DNA of 64,000 nt from Chamaesiphon minutus PCC 6605 (GTDB taxonomy: Bacteria > Cyanobacteriota > Cyanobacteriia > Cyanobacteriales > Chamaesiphonaceae): assembly GCF_000317145.1 (NCBI RefSeq), contig NC_020053.1, forward strand, positions 208,519-272,518, written 5' to 3'. Positions 14 to 32,965 of this stretch are shown in pieces. The notes under the pieces are model-generated. The model saw nothing but the letters and a program-made list of their open reading frames with translations, did no database searches and was not told the origin of the DNA. The position numbers and the translations under genes are program-made. Positions within the stretch are counted from its first letter, which is position 1. Every line of letters starts with the position of its first letter.

Positions 14-568
14 ATGTCCGCGATCGACACCCCCGTTACCTTGCGCCTCATGACCGAGCAAGATCTTCCGATGCTCCATGACTGGCTGAACCGACCCCAC
101 ATATTCGAGTGGTGGGGCGGTGAAGAGGAACGCCCGACTCTTGATGAAGTGCTGGAACACTACCTGCCAAGAGTTCTGGCAGAAGAGTCCGTCACGCCGT
201 ACATCGCAATGCTGGGCGAGGAGCCGATCGGCTACGCCCAGTCTTACGTCGCACTCGGCAGCGGTGATGGATGGTGGGAAGACGAAACTGACCCAGGAGT
301 GAGGGGAATTGACCAGTCTCTGGCTAATCCGACACAGTTGAGCAAGGGTCTGGGAACAAAGCTTGTCCGTGCGCTCGTTGAGCGGTTGTTCTTGGACTCC
401 ACTGTGACGAAGATCCAAACCGACCCAACTCCGAACAACCATCGGGCGATCCGTTGCTACGAGAAGGCGGGGTTTGTACGGCAGAAGATAATCACCACGC
501 CTGATGGCCCAGCCGTCTACATGGTTCAAACACGTCAGTCATTCGAGAACGCGCGTAGTACTGCCTAA
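14..568 (+). CDS. aac(6'): AAC(6')-Ib-like aminoglycoside 6'-N-acetyltransferase
   Basis: This GNAT-fold enzyme is expected to transfer acetyl from acetyl-CoA to the 6'-amino group of aminoglycosides in the cytoplasm. The 184-residue protein matches my memory of AAC(6')-Ib along its whole length. Landmarks are EWWGGEE near residue 32, SVTPYIAML, the acetyl-CoA loop QLSKGLGTKLVRALV and the C-terminal AIRCYEKAGF. The GDGWWEDETDPG segment and TTPDGPAVYMVQ keep the Trp and Asp of the ordinary enzyme rather than the -cr variant residues. The stop codon lies inside the R'' box of an attC-like site, as in a gene cassette. No clear ribosome-binding site precedes the ATG; only 13 bases are visible upstream. 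Family assignment is firm; substrate range is inferred. Confidence 0.9.
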   Translation: MSAIDTPVTLRLMTEQDLPMLHDWLNRPHIFEWWGGEEERPTLDEVLEHYLPRVLAEESVTPYIAMLGEEPIGYAQSYVALGSGDGWWEDETDPGVRGIDQSLANPTQLSKGLGTKLVRALVERLFLDSTVTKIQTDPTPNNHRAIRCYEKAGFVRQKIITTPDGPAVYMVQTRQSFENARSTA

Positions 569-647
569 CCAGCCAATGGAGCCGATGCGGTGACGTATTG
601 CGAGGTTTTAGTTCGGTGGCCCGCGCGGCTCATCGGCAACGTTGTGC
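563..647 (+). repeat. attC-like recombination site (cassette 1)
   Basis: The site has an R'' box GCCTAAC at 563-569 and an R' box GTTGTGC at 641-647, 85 bp overall. The inner arms pair: GCCAATGGAGCCG just after R'' is nearly complementary to CGGCTCATCGGC just before R', with one unpaired G, as in the extrahelical bases of attC hairpins. It overlaps the stop codon of the aac(6') gene. Confidence 0.8.
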
Positions 648-809
648 CGCTCAGGTTATTTATTGGGGCAGTAGTTTAGAACTTGTCTGTTGGTGTTCGG
701 CATCTAGTCATCTTGAGATGGTTGATGGGACGTGTTTTTCGATCGGTTGGTGAGGCGATCGCTGCTGATTCTACAATGGGGAAAGTTTTTGCTCACACTA
801 GAAATTCAG

Positions 810-1238
810 ATGAAGCCACAACTCAGAATTGAGATAGCCGATGAACCAAAGCTTGATGAGACTGAATTCATTGTTCGACAACTAATCCAATTCAACAGTC
901 GTTGTGCTGGTGAAGGCAGTTTTCGGCAATTAGCTATTTTCTTACGAGATGCAGACGAGAATTTAGTCGGTGGGCTAGTTGGGTCAACATATTGGCAGTG
1001 GCTATACGTTGATGTTTTTTGGATACACGAATCATACCGAGGAGGCGGTTACGGTATCTCCCTTCTAGCTGCTGCGGAGCAGGAAGCTGTTAAGCGGGGT
1101 TGCCAATATGCCTATTTAGATACGTTTAGCTTTCAAGCACCAGAATTCTATCAAAAGCATGGATACGTTGTATTTGGAGAGCTATCAGACTTTCCAGCAG
1201 GGCACAGCCGATTCTTCTTAAGAAAAGTGCTGCAATAA
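810..1238 (+). CDS. GNAT-family N-acetyltransferase (cassette gene)
   Basis: A 142-residue GNAT acetyltransferase of unknown substrate. The acetyl-CoA binding signature is seen as SYRGGGYGISLLAAAEQEA, followed by the strand and helix YAYLDTFSFQAPEFYQKHGY. I chose the ATG at 810 because the upstream in-frame codons give no GNAT sequence, and MKPQLRIEIADE is a normal beta-1 start. The gene lies between two attC-like sites (563-647 and 1244-1332), and its stop is 5 bp before the R'' box of the second, which fits a single-gene integron cassette. Substrate unknown. Confidence 0.85.
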   Translation: MKPQLRIEIADEPKLDETEFIVRQLIQFNSRCAGEGSFRQLAIFLRDADENLVGGLVGSTYWQWLYVDVFWIHESYRGGGYGISLLAAAEQEAVKRGCQYAYLDTFSFQAPEFYQKHGYVVFGELSDFPAGHSRFFLRKVLQ

Positions 1239-1243
1239 GCGCG

Positions 1244-1332
1244 GCACAACAATCCGCCTGCACACCGACCGTTTAGGAATTACTGGTTGAGTCCGAAAGT
1301 CTACTAGCGGCGGGTGATTGGGAACGTTGTGC
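1244..1332 (+). repeat. attC-like recombination site (cassette 2)
   Basis: R'' GCACAAC at 1244-1250 and R' GTTGTGC at 1326-1332 are exact complements of each other. The inner arm CAATCCGCC pairs with GGCGGGTGATTG before R'. Its 3' part GCGGCGGGTGATTGGGAAC is identical to that of the site at 10634-10718, so the two belong to one sequence family. Confidence 0.85.
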
Positions 1333-1423
1333 TACTTGAGCTATCGGTAAGAATGTAGTCCTAGTTTTCTGCCAAACACAGGACTACGCTTGAGGTGCTG
1401 TTCGAGAACTTGCCAGCTTTGTC

Positions 1424-1455
1424 TTTACATTCTCCAAGACATATGTATAATACAT
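1424..1455 (+). promoter_or_regulatory. Promoter with overlapping MarR-type palindrome
   Basis: TTTACA (1424-1429) and TATAAT (1446-1451) are separated by 16 bp. The -10 box sits inside the palindrome ATGTATAATACAT (1443-1455). The operon that follows encodes a MarR regulator, so autorepression at this site is likely. A strong AGGAGG ribosome-binding site follows just before the ATG at 1507. Confidence 0.6.
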
Positions 1456-1506
1456 ACATATATAGTTTATCGATAGTTAACGTTCAACAATTTTTTAGGA
1501 GGACAC

Positions 1507-1920
1507 ATGAACACTGAATGGCAAAACCGCATTCAGGAGTATTGCGAGGCGTGGACGACTGATAGTGGTTGTCCAAACTTCGATCGTCTTGAAACGTTCT
1601 ACGCAATGGACTCAGATGTTGTCATTTACGATTCGCTACCACCGCTTGAGGGGTTTACTGGGTTTGCACAAATGCGATCCATTTACCCAGGACTATTGCG
1701 GCTTACGGTGTCTCCGAATCAAGACTTGCAAGTAAAGCTACTGGCAGATGGGCAAGTAGCGGTCACTGCCTTTACTTCCCATATGGCATACAGGTTCGAG
1801 GATGGCAACGAGTTTAAGGTGAATGCCAGACATACAGATGTTTGGGAAAAACGGAACAATCAGTGGCTCATCGTCCATGAGCATCCGTCAACAGTGATTA
1901 ATCCAAGCAGGATTGAGTAA
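1507..1920 (+). CDS. SnoaL/NTF2-like domain protein
   Basis: A 137-residue protein with the single-domain SnoaL/NTF2-like cone fold, often seen in ketosteroid-isomerase-like or DUF4440 proteins. The pattern is an N-terminal helix (MNTEWQNRIQEYCEAW), FYAMDSDVVIYDSLPP, then the strands HMAYRFEDGN, ARHTDVWEKRNNQWLIVHEHPS. Translation starts at ATG 1507 behind AGGAGG. It is the first gene of an operon with MarR, EamA and VOC genes. Function unknown; it may modify or bind a small molecule linked to the MarR ligand. Confidence 0.75.
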   Translation: MNTEWQNRIQEYCEAWTTDSGCPNFDRLETFYAMDSDVVIYDSLPPLEGFTGFAQMRSIYPGLLRLTVSPNQDLQVKLLADGQVAVTAFTSHMAYRFEDGNEFKVNARHTDVWEKRNNQWLIVHEHPSTVINPSRIE

Positions 1921-1924
1921 TTTT

Positions 1925-2449
1925 ATGACTATGACTGAACGAACTCTCAATCTTCTCGGTGCGCTGGCTTTAAGTGTAGTCGATGGGATAAATGTGGTTG
2001 TTGAAGCAAGTGTGGGGCATGGTGGAGAGACTCCTGCGGCTCTGGTCACACTAGGCGCAGAACCTGGACTTTCTATCAATACTTTGCGCCAGATTTTGAA
2101 CCTTTCTCACCCTGGAACTGTCCGTTTGGTCGATCGGCTAGCAGCGCAAGGTTTGGTCGAACGTAGAGCAGGCATAGATGGGAGAACGCTAGCATTGTTT
2201 CTCACGAATGCAGGTCATCAACGGCGACAGGCAATTTTGACTGAACGGCGGCAGCAGTTACAGCTTGCAGTGAACGCTTTAACACTCAATGAGCAAAAGC
2301 AGTTAACTCAGCTTATGGAGAAGATGCTTGCTGCCATGACCACCAGTGAGCTACGTGCTTATGCAATTTGTCGTCTTTGTGAGGGCGAAATGTGCCCAGG
2401 CGATCGCTGCCCTGTAGAACAAAAATATTGCCAAATGTTAAATTTATGA
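1925..2449 (+). CDS. MarR-family regulator with cysteine-rich tail
   Basis: A dimeric winged-helix repressor. The recognition region is LSHPGTVRLVDRLAAQGLVERRAGIDGRT. I chose ATG 1925 over the TTG at 1913, which overlaps the preceding stop. The last 35 residues contain a cysteine cluster (CRLCEGEMCPGDRCPVEQ followed by one more Cys) that could bind metal or sense oxidation. The stop overlaps the next start as ATGA, so the EamA gene is translationally coupled. It probably acts on the palindrome at 1443-1455. Confidence 0.85.
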   Translation: MTMTERTLNLLGALALSVVDGINVVVEASVGHGGETPAALVTLGAEPGLSINTLRQILNLSHPGTVRLVDRLAAQGLVERRAGIDGRTLALFLTNAGHQRRQAILTERRQQLQLAVNALTLNEQKQLTQLMEKMLAAMTTSELRAYAICRLCEGEMCPGDRCPVEQKYCQMLNL

Positions 2450-3354
2450 ACAATATCATTATGGCTCTCAGCTACGCCTTTTGCTGGGGAGTTGGGGTAA
2501 CACTGACAAAAATCGCCCTCTCAGAGATTTCAGCGACAACACTCCTGATTATTCAACTCTCGTCTAGTGTTGCATTTCTGGCAACGGCTTGTTATGTGAG
2601 GGATCGCCAACTACCTTTTTCCTGGAAACATCTCAAACAAGGTTTTGCGGGGATCTTTGAACCTGGTTTAACCTATATGGTTGGTATTTTTGGTGTCCAA
2701 ATGACAACCGCCAGCAATGCAACACTAATCGGTTCATCAGAAGTGGTGCTGACGATTTTATTTGCAGCAATGTTTCTCGGTGAAAAATTGACGCGGATGA
2801 AATTACTGCTTGCTGGCCTCAGTTTTTCAGGGTTGCTGTTGTTACTGCTCAAGGATGCTCATCAAGGGGCTAGTCATTCTTCGCTAATCGGTAATTTACT
2901 GTTGCTGATGAGCGTAATCTTTGCGGTTTTTTATGTTCTCTTCAGTAAGAAGCAGATCGCATCATCAGATCCGCTACAACTCACCTCGTCGCAACAGTTA
3001 GTCGGCTTAATCGTGACCGTATTCTGTTTTAGTATGCTATCGATCGTAAATCCCAACTACGAAGTAAATGCTGCTGGGATTTCGCCGCAATTTTGGTTGC
3101 TGGCAATAGGCTCAGGAATTATGGCGTATGGTTTGGGGTTCTTGCTCTATCTCATTGCATTGCAGAACATACCTGTAAGTCAGGCTGCTTTTTATGTTGC
3201 TCTGATTCCTGTTTTTGGTGTAGCTAGTGCAGTTGTGATGATTGGTGAGCAGCCTAGTCTGGCACAGTGGATTGGTGGTTTACTGGTCATTGTTTCGTCC
3301 TATTTCGCTAACAGGTTGCAAACTACTCCGATTCACGACAGAGGACACTTATGA
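2446..3354 (+). CDS. EamA/DMT-family transporter
   Basis: An inner-membrane protein of 302 residues with about ten hydrophobic helices and the two EamA repeats. The first half starts ALSYAFCWGVGVTLTK; the repeat ends show LFAAMFLGEKLTRMKLLLAG and VASAVVMIGEQPSLAQWIGG. It likely exports a metabolite or drug. The ATG at 2446 overlaps the MarR stop by 4 bp (ATGA), and its own stop overlaps the next gene in the same way. Repression of an exporter by an adjacent MarR protein is a common arrangement. Substrate unknown. Confidence 0.85.
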   Translation: MNNIIMALSYAFCWGVGVTLTKIALSEISATTLLIIQLSSSVAFLATACYVRDRQLPFSWKHLKQGFAGIFEPGLTYMVGIFGVQMTTASNATLIGSSEVVLTILFAAMFLGEKLTRMKLLLAGLSFSGLLLLLLKDAHQGASHSSLIGNLLLLMSVIFAVFYVLFSKKQIASSDPLQLTSSQQLVGLIVTVFCFSMLSIVNPNYEVNAAGISPQFWLLAIGSGIMAYGLGFLLYLIALQNIPVSQAAFYVALIPVFGVASAVVMIGEQPSLAQWIGGLLVIVSSYFANRLQTTPIHDRGHL

Positions 3355-3776
3355 TCGCATATGTTTGTCTTGGCACAAATGACATAGTTCGCGCAAGTGT
3401 CTTCTATGACGCTGTACTCGGCGCGCTTGGATTGTCGCGTTGCGATATCTCAGGCGATCCGGACTTGGAAGGCTGGGTCGGTTGGTGTACCTACGGAGAC
3501 CAAGGCATCAAAGAAGTTGTGCTTTGGCTTTGCAAACCCATTGACGGAAAGGCTGCTACCCTTGGCAACGGCTCGATGGTCGCACTGCGGGCAAAAAACT
3601 GGGCAGCAGTTGAAGAGTTCTACACTGCCGCCCTGTCCAATGGTGGTACACCCGAAGGGGCACCGGGACTCCGCCTGCAATATAACCCTGACTTCTACGC
3701 TGCCTACGTGCGCGATCTAGATGGAAACAAACTGGCGGTTGTGTGTCGCGGGTTTACGGAACGGGCAGGGCAGTGA
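3351..3776 (+). CDS. VOC/glyoxalase-bleomycin resistance family protein
   Basis: A 141-residue vicinal-oxygen-chelate fold protein. It begins AYVCLGTNDIVRASVFYDAVLGALGL and ends YAAYVRDLDGNKLAVVCRG, the paired beta-alpha-beta-beta-beta units of the family. It could be a lyase, dioxygenase or drug-binding protein; metal ligands cannot be assigned safely. The ATGA overlap with the EamA gene makes it the fourth gene of the MarR operon. It carries no attC of its own directly downstream. Confidence 0.8.
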   Translation: MIAYVCLGTNDIVRASVFYDAVLGALGLSRCDISGDPDLEGWVGWCTYGDQGIKEVVLWLCKPIDGKAATLGNGSMVALRAKNWAAVEEFYTAALSNGGTPEGAPGLRLQYNPDFYAAYVRDLDGNKLAVVCRGFTERAGQ

Positions 3777-3813
3777 TGAATCCAAGAGATAGTAAGTCAA
3801 GAGATAGTAAATC

Positions 3814-4263
3814 ATGACACCAGAAATTAAGATAGCTTCGATCGAAGATCTGGAAATTCTTTTGCCACTCGTTCGGGCGTTCCACGAATTTGAGGATCTC
3901 CACATTACAGAAGAACAAAGGAAAAGCTCACTTACTACATTGTTAGCCAATGTGGAACTTGGCGGGATTTGGCTAATTTATTACAACCGCCGACCTGTTG
4001 GATATATAGCACTGTGTCTTGGTTATAGTATTGAGTTTGGTGGAAAAGATGCTTTTATTGATGAATTCTATATTAGACCTGAATTTCGAGGAGAGGGACT
4101 AGGGAGACAAACCTTAGAATTTATTAAAATCGCGGCGAAAGATCTTGACATTCGCGCAATTCATCTTGAAGTTGCAAGAACGAATACTAATGCTCATAAG
4201 CTTTACTCTCGCTCTAACTTCGAGGTTCGTGAAAAATATGTACTCATGTCAGTCAATTTATAA
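3814..4263 (+). CDS. GNAT-family N-acetyltransferase, paralogue of 24155-24604
   Basis: A 149-residue GNAT protein. The acetyl-CoA loop is RPEFRGEGLGRQTLEFI, followed by IHLEVARTNTNAHKLYSRSNF. It is closely similar over its whole length to the minus-strand protein at 24155-24604, including the identical end KYVLMSVNL. An attC-like site follows at 4378-4455, so this copy looks cassette-borne while the other is not. A short AAGAGATAGTAA duplication precedes the ATG. Substrate unknown. Confidence 0.85.
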   Translation: MTPEIKIASIEDLEILLPLVRAFHEFEDLHITEEQRKSSLTTLLANVELGGIWLIYYNRRPVGYIALCLGYSIEFGGKDAFIDEFYIRPEFRGEGLGRQTLEFIKIAAKDLDIRAIHLEVARTNTNAHKLYSRSNFEVREKYVLMSVNL

Positions 4264-4377
4264 TGAAACGTATCAATTAATTCCAGCCTTTACTCATTAT
4301 CTCTACAAAGTTAAATTGTCAATCAATGATGTGAAAACCGTTAGAATTTGAACCGCATAAAGTATGAGTGGTAGCGT

Positions 4378-4455
4378 GCCTAACAATCCCGTTGCACGCC
4401 GACCGTATTTAATCTCTTCGTTATTACTAGCAGCGGGTGAACGGGGGCGTTAGCC
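4378..4455 (+). repeat. attC-like recombination site (cassette 3)
   Basis: R'' GCCTAAC at 4378-4384 and R' GTTAGCC at 4449-4455. The arms AATCCCGTT and AACGGGGGC pair, and TACTAGCAGCGGGTGA belongs to the same family as the 3' halves of the sites at 1244, 10634 and 29558. The other sequence in 4264-4660 is non-coding; I see no gene in it. Confidence 0.8.
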
Positions 4456-10633: not shown

Positions 10634-10718
10634 GCATAACAACGCCCACGCACGCCGATCGCCGAGAGTTGGTTATAATACAGAGGTTGTCTGCGGCGGG
10701 TGATTGGGAACGTTATAC
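10634..10718 (+). repeat. attC-like recombination site (solitary)
   Basis: R'' GCATAAC at 10634-10640 and R' GTTATAC at 10712-10718. The central part GCGGCGGGTGATTGGGAAC is identical to that of the site at 1244-1332. No plausible plus-strand cassette gene lies upstream; a lone GTTATGC at 10572-10578 may be the relic of another site. The rest of 10542-10841 holds no gene. Confidence 0.75.
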
Positions 10719-13172: not shown

Positions 13173-13742
13173 ATGCTTCCTCAATCTACGCTAGAAACGA
13201 CCAGATCGATCCTGCGCCCCTTATCCCTTGCAGATGTGCCGTCAATCCAACGTGTGGCGAGTCGTCGTGAAGTTGCCGATACGATGATTTCGATCCCCCA
13301 CCCATATCCTAATGGTGAGGCGGCGCAATATCTCCGAAGACAAATTGCCGAATTTGAGGCAGGGCATTCAGTTTCATTTGCAATCGAGCGCAAATCCGAT
13401 CGAGCATTTTGCGGAGTTATCGAGATTCGAGATATTGAGACAGAGCATTCTCAAGCTGAATTGAGTTTTTGGTTAGCAGTTGAGATGTGGGGACAAGGAT
13501 ATATGAGCGAGGCATTAAAGCCGATACTTCGCTTTGGATTTGAAGATTTAGATCTCAATAGACTCTATGCTTATCACATGAATAGAAATCCAGGATCGGG
13601 CAAAGTATTGCAGACAAATGGGTTTTTACCAGAAGGGCTGCTGCGTCAGCGAGTCCGAAAATGGGGAGTGTTTGAGGATGTAAAGTTATGGGCAATTTTG
13701 CGAAGAGATTGGCAGAGCGAAATGGCATCACAACCTAGCTAG
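13173..13742 (+). CDS. RimJ/RimL-type GNAT acetyltransferase
   Basis: A 189-residue acetyltransferase of the RimJ/RimL type that acetylates protein N-termini or small amines. It opens TTRSILRPLSLADVPSIQRVA and contains VEMWGQGYMSEALKPILRFGFEDL, NPGSGKVLQTNGFLPEG and the end VKLWAILRRDW. Its stop lies within a possible degenerate attC site (13728-13813), so it may have arrived as a cassette. Confidence 0.88.
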   Translation: MLPQSTLETTRSILRPLSLADVPSIQRVASRREVADTMISIPHPYPNGEAAQYLRRQIAEFEAGHSVSFAIERKSDRAFCGVIEIRDIETEHSQAELSFWLAVEMWGQGYMSEALKPILRFGFEDLDLNRLYAYHMNRNPGSGKVLQTNGFLPEGLLRQRVRKWGVFEDVKLWAILRRDWQSEMASQPS

Positions 13743-13813
13743 AGTTGACTGTTGCAGTCGATCTCGGTGGTGGAGCAGAGGTTGCTCAGAGCCGCTCAAC
13801 CGAAACGTTAAGC
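13728..13813 (+). repeat. Candidate degenerate attC-like site
   Basis: TCACAAC at 13728-13734 and GTTAAGC at 13807-13813 are 86 bp apart, and GTTGAC pairs with GCTCAAC as a possible inner arm. The spacing fits and the preceding gene stops inside it, but its sequence departs from the other sites, so the call is weak. Confidence 0.35.
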
Positions 13814-29557: not shown

Positions 29558-29645
29558 ATCTAACGACCCCGTTCACCCGCCGCTAGTAACCTCTCGGACT
29601 TAGCCAACCGCCTGATACGGTCGTGGTGCAACGGGATTGTTATGC
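29558..29645 (-). repeat. attC-like recombination site (minus orientation)
   Basis: On the minus strand R'' is GCATAAC (29639-29645) and R' is GTTAGAT (29558-29564). AATCCCGTTGCAC and GCGGCGGGTGAACGGG form the inner arms, nearly as in the site at 4378-4455. The TAA stop of the P-loop gene lies inside R''. Confidence 0.85.
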
Positions 29646-30179
29646 TGCCGCGATCGCCTGCAAAAATACCACATTAACAGACCTCACAACTTGCTCCAGT
29701 GTTTGGTGTGACGTATCAATAATTGGTAAGTCTTTACGTTGTGCTTGCTTTCGTAAGAAGGTTGCCCAATTTTTCATATCTTGATTAACTAAATCTGGTT
29801 GTTGCCGATTATGGATAAGCCGCTCACGCATTGTTTCCCAGTCACAGTCAATAAGCACAATGAAGTACCTTGCAATCTCAAACTTATGAAATGCAGCCTC
29901 GATAAAATCTAAATTGACTTGCCCTTCAATGACAACAATCTTTTTATCCTGATACTTAACAGTAATCTTTTCGATCCATCGGTATGTTGTAAGCTCTTGC
30001 CACTTCTCCCCTGAACCTGCTTGCTCGATCATTTCTTCGGGTGAGGGAACTCCAATAGAGTCGAAATGCAAAAACGCATAATCATCAAAGGAATGATAGT
30101 GTGCTTTCAGCTTCTCAACAATGCTGGTCTTGCCAACACCTGACGCACCCGACAGAAAGACAATTGCTGGGATTTCCAT
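29640..30179 (-). CDS. P-loop NTPase/kinase-like protein (cassette gene)
   Basis: A 179-residue P-loop protein. Walker A is FLSGASGVGKTSIVEKL at the N-terminus and a Walker B-like KKIVVIEGQVNLDFIEAAF follows, then DCDWETMRERLIHNRQQ, a lid-like region. It resembles small nucleoside/nucleotide or antibiotic kinases of the AAA_33/zeta type. It lies between two attC-like sites with its stop inside R'', the classic single-gene cassette arrangement. Substrate unknown. Confidence 0.85.
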   Translation of the reverse strand: MEIPAIVFLSGASGVGKTSIVEKLKAHYHSFDDYAFLHFDSIGVPSPEEMIEQAGSGEKWQELTTYRWIEKITVKYQDKKIVVIEGQVNLDFIEAAFHKFEIARYFIVLIDCDWETMRERLIHNRQQPDLVNQDMKNWATFLRKQAQRKDLPIIDTSHQTLEQVVRSVNVVFLQAIAAA

Positions 30180-30273: not shown

Positions 30274-30360
30274 GCATAACGGTGAAGGTCAGCGGACACA
30301 AATACTCTTTGCAACTCACCAACCACTTGACATTGTTCCGGTGCATTGGGATTGTTATGC
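30274..30360 (-). repeat. attC-like recombination site (minus orientation)
   Basis: On the minus strand R'' GCATAAC (30354-30360) and R' GTTATGC (30274-30280) are exact complements. Inner arms AATCCCAATGCACCGG and GTCCGCTGACCTTCACC pair partly. It ends the cassette that carries the ASCH-wHTH gene and precedes the P-loop cassette. Confidence 0.8.
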
Positions 30361-30390: not shown

Positions 30391-30978
30391 TTAAGTAGAG
30401 TCAAGACGATTGAGAATCTCGCAACCTCGTGGCGATAGCCGATAGCCTCCGCGCGCAATACTTTCAGTGAGTCCAATCTCCTTGAGTTTACGTACCTTGA
30501 CTTTGAGTATTTGTGGATCTAGATGTGCTGAAGCTGCAAGCTCTGTAGCACGCAAACCTGGATGCTGTTCGATCAGTCGTAAAACTGTCATCGTCCAGGA
30601 ACCCTCTTGGCTTTTTAGATCGAGTTGCGTGAGCTTTCGATGAACTTCAGCTAGTTCGTCATCGGTAAGATCGATCTGCTCTCTCAGCACTTCACGAGGA
30701 TCTTGTCCCACAAAGTGAAAACTAATGCGATATACTTCACCATCTCCATTTTTGTTTAGCGTGTGCAATAATTCTGAGCAAGATGAGTAACCAGCCTTTT
30801 GAGCCTCTTCTTGTGTAATTTCATTAATATTAATCACAGTCACTGCGTCGATCGCCAAAATACCGACGACTGTTCTAAGCTGACCACCCGTTTTAACCGT
30901 TGGGCGCTTCCACCGACGAAATGCTAACGTGACTGTTCCATCTGCGATCCACTCAAGAACTTGATGCTTGATTAACAT
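30391..30978 (-). CDS. ASCH-like domain fused to winged HTH
   Basis: A 195-residue protein. Residues about 5-75 read like an ASCH/PUA-type RNA-binding domain (VLEWIADGTVTLAFRRWKRP, LRTVVGILAIDAV, ITQEEAQKAGYSS). Residues about 125-190 form a winged HTH (LIEQHPGLRATELAASAHLD, KVRKLKEIGLTESIARGGYRL). The combination suggests a nucleic-acid-binding regulator. It is 18 bp downstream of the flavodoxin gene and 30 bp upstream of an attC-like site. Function unknown. Confidence 0.7.
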   Translation of the reverse strand: MLIKHQVLEWIADGTVTLAFRRWKRPTVKTGGQLRTVVGILAIDAVTVININEITQEEAQKAGYSSCSELLHTLNKNGDGEVYRISFHFVGQDPREVLREQIDLTDDELAEVHRKLTQLDLKSQEGSWTMTVLRLIEQHPGLRATELAASAHLDPQILKVKVRKLKEIGLTESIARGGYRLSPRGCEILNRLDST

Positions 30979-30996
30979 GATGACAAAAGGTTGGAG

Positions 30997-31584
30997 CTAT
31001 TTGATTCGATGCACCCATTTTGCGATGTGTTGTCCAAAGTGTTCGCAGCTTAGGCGGTCGCCTGGATGAAGTTCTGGCTCTTTTCGCTCAAAGTCTAAAT
31101 AGGTTTGTCCCATCACACCCAAATAAGATCCGAGGCGATTTGTTTCATCGATTGTACCTCTTGCTGTGCAATCAATTTCTCCAGGATTTACCCACACCAT
31201 GCCATGTTGGGCTGCTAGAATGCTGAAATAAATCAATGTATTCAGTTTGTCACCACTGAGAGCCGCACCATGCGTAAATCCACCTGCTAGTTTATCTTTC
31301 CAAGATTCCGCAAACCATGTCTCACTGGTGAAATCAGCGAATGCTTTGAACTGAGCAGCAGCCCCACCCATATAGGTCGGAGAACCAAATAGAATTGCAT
31401 CTGCCATTTGGAGGCTTTCCATAAACTTTTCATCGAACCACCGCCCATCTTTGATTTGTATTCCTTCAATTCGCAGTAAATCAACGCGAGTATCGGCGTG
31501 ACGAACCCCAGAGGCGATCGCTTCAGCCATAAGATGCGTATTTCCCGTACCAGAAAAATAGATAATTGCGACGCTGCCCATCAT
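30997..31584 (-). CDS. Flavodoxin/WrbA-like NAD(P)H oxidoreductase
   Basis: A 195-residue FMN-binding flavodoxin-fold protein. The phosphate-binding loop is YFSGTGNTHLMAEAIA; the isoalloxazine loop is LFGSPTYMGGAAAQFKAF and FTHGAALSGDK. I placed the start at the first of two tandem ATGs (31584), behind AAGGAA; a longer frame to 31620 lacks support. It probably reduces quinones or carries electrons. It is transcribed together with the ASCH-wHTH gene. Confidence 0.85.
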   Translation of the reverse strand: MMGSVAIIYFSGTGNTHLMAEAIASGVRHADTRVDLLRIEGIQIKDGRWFDEKFMESLQMADAILFGSPTYMGGAAAQFKAFADFTSETWFAESWKDKLAGGFTHGAALSGDKLNTLIYFSILAAQHGMVWVNPGEIDCTARGTIDETNRLGSYLGVMGQTYLDFERKEPELHPGDRLSCEHFGQHIAKWVHRIK

Positions 31585-31669
31585 GCTTCCTTCAAAGTGA
31601 TAGTGAGGTGAAACCATCACAGGACATTATGGAGCAGTATGGCTGCTAAAGGATTGTAAAAAAATGACC

Positions 31670-32482
31670 TCAATCCCATAGCTCTACATGGCAGGGGTGA
31701 ACGCCGCGCTTCGCCACATACTCAGTGGGTGTACAAGTTGCAAACGCCCGAAAATCATGGATAAGGTGAGCCTGATCGAAGTAACCACAGATAAAAGCGA
31801 TATCCGTCCAATCGATCTGCTTTTTGCCCTCTATGAGACGAAGCACTCGCTGCAATCGCCGAACTCGACAATACAATTTGGGGGTTAACCCCACCCGATC
31901 GCGAAATAGCTGGTTAAAGTAGCGAGTACTAAACCCTATTTGACTTGTCACTGTACCGATCGGAGAAGTCGGTGAGCGTTCAAACTCCCGCAAGGCAAAA
32001 TCAATCATTGGATGGCGAGCCAGAGGCTGCATCAAACTTAATAAAAACCGCTCCAGTGCCAGAAAACGGGTTGCTGTCGTCGGGTTTTCTAGCAAGCGAT
32101 CCCGTAGCTCTGCCGCATTCCCCTTCCACAGTTCTTCCAACGAAATGATTTGATTATGCAATTCCCCCGCAGGAATTGCGAAGAATGCAGCACTTCCTCC
32201 TGGCTTAAAATGCGCGCCCATCACGGAACAGTTTCGATCTTTGTCAATGATAAAGCCTTCGGAATGGACACCACAGATCCTTGCACCTTTGGTACTACCA
32301 AACTGAGTCTGACTGTAAAGATCGAAGAGTGGGATTTTGTCTTCGTGGAGGTCAATCACCAACTCCATCGAGCCAATCGGCAATACGCACGATCGCGACG
32401 GTAAGTTATCTCCTTCCCAGTACCATAGAAATTCAACGAACTGCGAGAGCGGCGATCGAGGCTGGTAAGTCTGATAAATCAT
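31670..32482 (-). CDS. AraC-family transcriptional regulator
   Basis: A 270-residue AraC regulator with the DUF6597-type N-terminal domain (YQPRSPLSQFVEFLWYWEG, SVMGAHFKPGGSAAFF) and a C-terminal double HTH (PIGTVTSQIGFSTRYFNQLF, DIAFICGYFDQAHLIHDF). The ATG at 32482 begins the usual family sequence. It precedes the flavodoxin gene by 85 bp on the same strand and probably controls it. It lies near the right end of the inverted-repeat unit. Confidence 0.88.
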   Translation of the reverse strand: MIYQTYQPRSPLSQFVEFLWYWEGDNLPSRSCVLPIGSMELVIDLHEDKIPLFDLYSQTQFGSTKGARICGVHSEGFIIDKDRNCSVMGAHFKPGGSAAFFAIPAGELHNQIISLEELWKGNAAELRDRLLENPTTATRFLALERFLLSLMQPLARHPMIDFALREFERSPTSPIGTVTSQIGFSTRYFNQLFRDRVGLTPKLYCRVRRLQRVLRLIEGKKQIDWTDIAFICGYFDQAHLIHDFRAFATCTPTEYVAKRGVHPCHVELWD

Positions 32483-32509
32483 ATAGTTTTGTCGATTAAT
32501 CAGCCTCAA

Positions 32510-32965
32510 CAGATAATCTTTAGGCTACAGTACCAGCCTAGAAATTGAGCCGCATAACTATTATTATGCGGAAACTTTCCACCTATCTACCCAGATCTGG
32601 GCAGATACACTGAAAAATTTAGCATATTCACTAGCGTAAAAGCCGAAATTTTCCACCGATCCTACTATTCAAGGTGGATCTACTGAATTTGTCAACATAT
32701 TTTCATCGAACCTCTGCAAATTCACATTCAGCAAGTTCACCTAATTCATCAGCAAGATCTAGAACTATGTAATGGTGCGACAATTTTGGCATTTGCATTC
32801 GCTTAGCCGCTCGCGTGTTTAGATTTAATTGATGACACGCCCTAGTATTTCTCAGCAAAAATTAATCTGGCTATTAGGGTCGTCTCATGACGCGATCGAC
32901 TCTTTAGATTACAGTGAAGAAGAAAATGTTTAAATAACATAAAGTAACGGTGCCACCAAATTCTC
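32510..32965. other. Non-coding region between AraC and histidine kinase genes
   Basis: No gene is supported. It holds the right inverted repeat (32821-32840) and, just outside it, a single TTCTCAGCAAA element (about 32848-32858) about 110 bp upstream of the kinase start. Short TTCAC/TTCAG words recur around 32715-32755 without clear phasing. Confidence 0.5.

Follow-up and report, generated by a model that had tools for sequence, protein, structure and literature searches.

How did an aac(6')-II-type aminoglycoside acetyltransferase gene come to stand in a row of attC sites, the recombination sites of integron cassettes, in a cyanobacterial genome in which no integron integrase (IntI) exceeds the family cut-off? 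The DNA in question (the window) comprises 64,000 bp of Chamaesiphon minutus PCC 6605, positions 208519-272518 of the 446,651-bp contig NC_020053.1 (C3, the 447-kb replicon), from a 6.76-Mb genome in three contigs; coordinates are those of the window unless prefixed by a contig. The genome has three psbA genes over cut-off, and the window contains 39 HIP1 octamers, which are typical of cyanobacteria, against 1.35 expected. We propose that the aac(6') cluster is very probably part of a decapitated integron, in which the cassette attachment site attI and the cassettes have been kept and the integrase gene intI has been lost, in a genome that carries five attI copies.

A sequence-only reading of this DNA had described three attC-like sites in 563-4455 as an integrase-less cluster resembling a CALIN (cluster of attC sites lacking integron-integrases), and had named an attC covariance model and folding of the bottom strand as checks. 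The three sites are real, and lie where that reading had placed them. A covariance model (R2) built from 21 attC of four other genomes, none from C. minutus, and run over both strands of all 64 kb without filters, finds them on the plus strand at 563-647 (29.0 bits, E 5.7e-5), 1244-1332 (72.3 bits, E 1.9e-16) and 4378-4455 (66.0 bits, E 8.8e-15), each with R''/R' boxes, inner arms and extrahelical bases. Four further sites, which the earlier reading lacked together with an attI at 32549-32701 (-), bring the window total to seven: 10634-10718 (+, 59.3 bits), 29558-29645 (-, 68.5 bits), 30274-30360 (-, 51.8 bits) and a weak candidate at 13725-13813 (+, 27.4 bits, E 1.5e-4). The remainder of the replicon yields 11 more R2 matches at E<=0.01. 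A second model (R1), built from nine attC of the own replicon, four of them inside the window and thus matched by construction, recovers 24 attC genome-wide (15 on C3, 9 on the chromosome); the weak candidate is neither one of these 24 nor matched by R1 when the window is searched at E<=5. The R2 seeds, drawn from 16 of 20 stretches of the four other genomes, were themselves found with R1, which contains window sites; R2 is thus independent in sequence, not in discovery.

The R2 alignment, which had been fitted to the structure, has a covariation score of 0.451 against a shuffled mean of 0.153, with none of 500 shuffles as high, and 89.5% of its cells are paired compared with 25-41% when slid; the number of pairs with changes on both sides is less telling (14 of 22; shuffled mean 11.2; 16 of 500 shuffles as high). 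Bottom-strand folding is unimpressive: sites 1244 and 4378 close the two-box R''/R' helix, site 563 forms the inner arms only, and single-sequence folding energies are unremarkable (z = 0.0 for 563, -1.0 for 1244 and -1.7 for 4378). An imperfect pair between the R'' and R' of one site is expected in an array, where R' is already part of the following cassette. A home-made search of the replicon for boxes and arms proved too weak (30 matches at score >=20 against 10.7 per shuffled replicon), separating only at score 22 (9 against 1.3), and profile and covariance models were used instead; RNAalifold found no pairs in an initial, mixed MAFFT alignment because its two arm types were misaligned with each other. 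Rfam at gathering scores has no match within the window.

The first two genes have the form of integron cassettes. The aac(6') gene (14..568, +) is of the resistance type that had been read from the sequence (TIGR04431, AacA4 family, 390.8 bits; cut-off 260). Its cassette opens at a core GTT at C3:208505, 14 bp before window base 1, and its stop codon (566-568) falls inside R'' (563-569), which pairs 6/7 with the opening core. The protein is 88.6% identical to AAC(6')-IIa of clinical plasmids (11.4% of residues differ), and the DNA is 84.3% identical to clinical aac(6')-IIa over 14-569. In a gapped alignment with a class 1 integron of Enterobacter, 470 of 555 bases of the gene and 20 of 27 from core GTT to ATG are identical, compared with 34 of 60 just outside the cassette on either side, a figure that has no random baseline. 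Because similarity to the clinical cassette lies between core and R'', the gene has the boundaries of an integron cassette. Both cassettes are homologous from core to R'' and have the stop codon in R''; the attC, however, is 85 bp here and 60 bp in the clinical cassette, with a different sequence, and the site upstream here is not the attI1 of class 1 integrons. The gene has a G+C content of 57% against 45% for the replicon. The similarity pattern, the different attC and the G+C content suggest that the gene most likely arrived in the form of a cassette and that it is related to the clinical gene by divergence rather than by recent copying. The narrower subtype models AAC(6')-Ib and -IIc leave the protein below their cut-offs; at the subtype residues it reads GIDQS, as does AAC(6')-IIa, compared with GIDQL in AAC(6')-Ib, and Ser instead of Leu at position 119 is, we take it, linked to gentamicin rather than amikacin. 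Of 54 relatives from GTDB genomes, a single one (76% identical) has a cyanobacterial title; it comes from a Synechococcales metagenome-assembled genome, where it stands upstream of an open reading frame (ORF) that looks protein-kinase-like by eye; its 5.9-kb stretch has no attC by R1, which says little, as R1 also missed most proteobacterial attC in the same search. The second gene, a GNAT acetyltransferase (732..1238, +; PF00583, 49.6 bits), is a textbook cassette, with R'' GCACAAC pairing 7/7 with the opening core GTTGTGC and the stop (1236-1238) 5 bp ahead of R''. The pattern of stop codons in or just before R'' that had been noted from the sequence thus holds for both genes.

That no integrase is visible in the stretch had also been noted, and the same is true of the whole genome, where none of 24 matches to TIGR02249 exceeds the IntI cut-off. 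The best of them is an N-terminal piece at C3:161191-161361 (-), covering residues 1-57 with a stop. The 159 bp beyond this intI start recur four more times in the genome at 82-88% identity to the first, and these five copies are the attI family: three on the 447-kb replicon, one of which lies in the window, and two on the chromosome. The first (attI1) stands 47 kb to the left, still with its broken intI start; attI3 is at 32549..32701 (-; C3:241067-241219; 82% to attI1), with core GTT at 32558-32556, and attI5 is on the chromosome at C1:1253939-1254090 (-). The core reads TAATAATAG|TT, and GGAAAGTTTCCGNNTAATAATAGTT is present without mismatch in all five copies. Together with copies from relatives, 21 attI align up to GTT and then diverge, except for two copies of one relative (G007a and G007c), which share what follows too; in that relative, two attI copies (loci L059 and L071) are 96% identical over 0.77 kb that takes in the cassette behind them, perhaps a duplicated integron. 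The shared element is about 155 bp long and reaches the intI start, which lies 153 bp from the core in seven loci and 174 bp in one. With up to three mismatches, the core pattern occurs at 21 places in 11 of 60 relatives (3 control matches) and at 65 places in 26 of 194 class members (2 control matches), our genome included in both.

The junctions give strong evidence for identifying this element as attI and an integron integrase as the builder of the arrays behind it. When IntI inserts a cassette at attI, whatever follows the cut is cassette sequence and has to be complementary to the R'' at the end of that cassette. In a first set, from the own genome and relatives, four of eight pairs were perfect, with a sum of 52 (24 of 40,320 permutations as high). 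This set had initially omitted attI2, the locus L065 and attI without a model-found attC downstream; relatives were viewed over 1.5 kb downstream, and the own attI3 and attI4 used sites 2.1-2.2 kb away. Adding attI2 (pairing 4/7) and L065 (a weak site, E 0.044, also 4/7) brings the set to 10 pairs and the sum to 60, where permutations average 50.0 and 10 of 200,000 are as high. For an independent set, four other genomes supplied 22 attI, of which 17 have a downstream attC and five have none in the stretch. Here 10 of 17 pairs are perfect (7/7), a number that none of 100,000 permutations reaches, and the sum is 108 against a permuted mean of 90.1 (1 of 100,000 as high); as a control, R'' against its own R' sums to 91, the permuted level. 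In C. minutus, the cassette that follows attI1, attI3 or attI4 has in each case an R'' fully complementary (7/7) to the core of its attI.

Fragments of intI stand where a former integrase gene would be, on the strand opposite to the array. They comprise 77 residues with two stops at attI1, 33 residues adjoining attI3 (32702..32800, +; residues 176-208 only; tblastn 84.8%, E 4e-12) and 20 residues at attI5; attI2 and attI4 have no intI remnant beside them. A near-full, frameshifted intI stands beside attI in one relative (G002), and an intact 356-codon frame exists in the same genus (G008), on a contig that ends within the attI region. The idea of a stop recurring across genomes at one fixed place of intI was dropped, as this place is no stop in relatives where it is readable.

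In our model, cassettes including the aac(6')-II-type one would have been inserted successively at attI by an IntI cutting G|TT, the cut being read from the junctions. The intI genes next to attI would later have decayed, mostly by deletion, with attI and cassettes staying in place; because no IntI over the family cut-off is left in the genome, the cassettes would now be fixed unless an IntI enters from outside. The cassettes may be expressed from a promoter near attI. We infer this order of events and the present immobility, as well as the assignment to the aac(6') array of attI2, which lies 2.8 kb to the left of the window (C3:205562-205717, +). The description of 563-4455 as CALIN-like is thus apt for that stretch and incomplete, as the stretch belongs to a longer row of sites following attI2.

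Several observations weigh against this model. Between the attI2 core, GTTGCCG, and the R'' of the first attC that the model places downstream (207238), only 4 of 7 positions pair, and position and strand are therefore what links attI2 to the aac(6') array. An exact RRRY after GTT is found in only 10 of 21 and 8 of 22 attI cores. Remnants of intI are found at E<0.01 at 6 of the 21 attI and weakly (E 0.03-0.9) at four more, leaving 11 without a visible remnant, some of these near contig ends, and the other 23 TIGR02249 matches, all partial and below cut-off, are read, as a group, as other tyrosine recombinases; such matches also occur in 14 of 14 control genomes. No attC lies within the 1.5-kb flank downstream of attI5. 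Among the nine chromosomal attC, one follows attI4, two are neighbours of each other and the others are solitary, and therefore off-target insertion is possible there. The distance between neighbouring plus-strand sites reaches about 17 kb (166706 to 184336), much more than in a textbook array. As to attI5, the sequence following its core may be an insertion.

The alternative that survives best, which we consider rather unlikely, is that attI copies have spread as delta-attI-type cassettes, which carry attI instead of attC; some attI would then not be relics of a complete integron. Such cassettes, the nearest parallel that we found to attI inside arrays, have been described as functional in class 1 and 2 integrons (PMC12901181). 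Here, attI2 lies within the attC row right after an apparent half attC, a relative's attI (L069) directly follows an attC, and attI2 and attI4 are the copies devoid of intI remnants. By contrast, three of the five own attI have adjoining intI pieces, and the shared element extends over about 155 bp up to the intI start. The reported delta-attI pieces measure 14-18 nt for attI1, with one whole 65-bp attI1, and one attI2 piece is labelled 238 (PMC12901181; these sites are not our copies of the same names); given the last two, length alone does not rule against this origin. Just behind our attI2, a hairpin at C3:205785-205855 resembles a reversed attC, with the bulge on the other arm, and ends in GTTAGGC.

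An improbable alternative is that an IntI acting from elsewhere in the genome inserted the cassettes of the cluster off target. Off-target insertion, intI loss and rearrangement have all been proposed as origins of CALINs (PMC8618304), and the solitary chromosomal attC are in line with the first. For the aac(6') array itself, where the core match fails (4/7), this origin keeps some probability. However, attC in the same orientation follow attI, first cassettes tend to have an R'' that matches the attI core, and the present genome has no IntI over cut-off; off-target insertion leaves cassettes unanchored at attI, whereas the arrays behind attI1, attI3 and attI4 are anchored there. That the sites are attC-like repeats of some other element unlinked to integrons, such as a repetitive extragenic palindrome (REP) or a miniature inverted-repeat transposable element (MITE), is hardly credible, for although they are numerous and some are solitary, they show compensatory covariation, linkage to attI and intI remnants and core-to-R'' matching, and one of them ends a known integron resistance cassette.

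The decapitated integron that we favour resembles several known systems and is identical to none of these. It shares with CALINs the clustering of at least two attC (three at 563-4455, seven in the window) and the lack of an IntI over cut-off, but differs in its surviving attI sites and intI fragments, from which the manner of integrase loss can be read. Sedentary chromosomal integrons and pseudo-integrons likewise have intI opposite to the array, an attI and cassettes with attC; here, in contrast, there are five attI, none with a whole intI, and the attC are widely spaced. Of a complete integron, the attI upstream of the array is present, with the imperfect match of attI2 described above, and a functional intI is not. 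From delta-attI cassettes the element differs in its length and in the intI pieces alongside three of the five own copies.

Elsewhere in the window, five genes lie between the second and third attC (1507..4263, +; by Pfam a SnoaL-like gene, MarR, an EamA transporter, ORF 3351-3776 and a GNAT), and the R'' of the third site pairs 5/7, plus one G-T, with the preceding core; because of the five genes and this partial match, the stretch is probably a fused or compound cassette. Within it, ORF 3351-3776 (+, 141 amino acids) has no Pfam or NCBIfam match and a G+C content of 55%, above the replicon's 45%. Behind attI3, cassette A (30391..32509, -), whose attC is at 30274-30360, seems to comprise three ORFs, named by eye: AraC-like (31670-32509), flavodoxin-like (30997-31620) and one of 195 amino acids (30391-30978). 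Three genes in the first cassette behind attI3 are unusual, despite the 7/7 match of its R'' to the attI3 core. Cassette B, ending in the attC at 29558-29645, holds a gene for 179 amino acids (29640..30179, -) whose start reads by eye as a P-loop kinase; its stop codon is within R'', GCATAAC, which pairs 7/7 with the preceding core GTTATGC.

Integrons are not in themselves rare in Cyanobacteria, and the sequence-only reading's argument that the array is noteworthy because most integrons are described from Proteobacteria is a weak one. Among 194 genomes drawn evenly from the class, our own included, IntI over the family cut-off occurs in 62 and attC by R1 (E<=1e-5) in 127, and therefore at least 65 genomes, incomplete assemblies included, have attC and no IntI over cut-off. 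Among 60 nearer relatives, our own included, five have IntI over cut-off, 11 the attI pattern and 35 attC at E<=1e-4. Integrons have previously been reported in Cyanobacteria (PMC2426708, PMC8618304, PMC9668308), an attC model for Cyanobacteria has been published (PMC8352920), and about one third of intI genes have been reported to be pseudogenes, with 20% of bacteria having more than one intI (PMC2426708). IntegronFinder 2.0 offers no attI detection outside class 1, where attI is called poorly described (PMC9024848), and therefore intI loss is hard to show. A limited search of the open literature, by title and start of the abstract, found no cyanobacterial attI or attI-bearing CALIN among the matches listed; as far as such limited searches reach, the attI family and attI-bearing arrays without integrase are new. 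The expectation that the motif stands near every IntI was refuted: among 54 IntI loci, 21 have a pattern-readable start, and the motif, counted at up to 6 of 29 positions mismatched, is present in 4 of these 21 (9 of 21 reached p<=0.02). The attI family therefore covers only part of cyanobacterial integrons.

Some members of the class carry many such sites. One genome (G079) combines 12 attI with no more than two weak IntI pieces (E 8e-16 and 5e-13), another (G195) has seven attI and no IntI match at E<=1e-12, and a third (G065) has three attI beside three IntI. Across 40 broken intI loci, hand-picked from the listed partial matches with some near contig ends left out and reference matches below 38% identity dropped, there is a suggestive tendency to retain the intI start: in 31 loci from general surveys both ends remain in 15, only the N-terminus in 11, only the C-terminus in three and neither in two (binomial p 0.057), and in nine loci from genomes chosen for attI, a choice that biases the count, only the N-terminus remains in eight and both ends in one. 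We speculate, with somewhat less than even confidence, that integrons in Cyanobacteria may have been decapitated repeatedly, with intI lost from its 3' end inward and attI, the intI start and the cassettes kept, perhaps on account of a cassette promoter in this region; attI of this family would then flag dead integrons, and G079 and G195 would be collections of frozen integrons.

The presence of an AAC(6')-II-type gene as a cassette with a different attC in a photosynthetic host bears on the origin of the clinical cassette, not on the direction of transfer. More generally, a recognizable attI with a core-to-R'' signature makes intI loss testable in many genomes, and, if repeated decapitation is true, the attI family would tell by sequence which integrase-less clusters are dead integrons.

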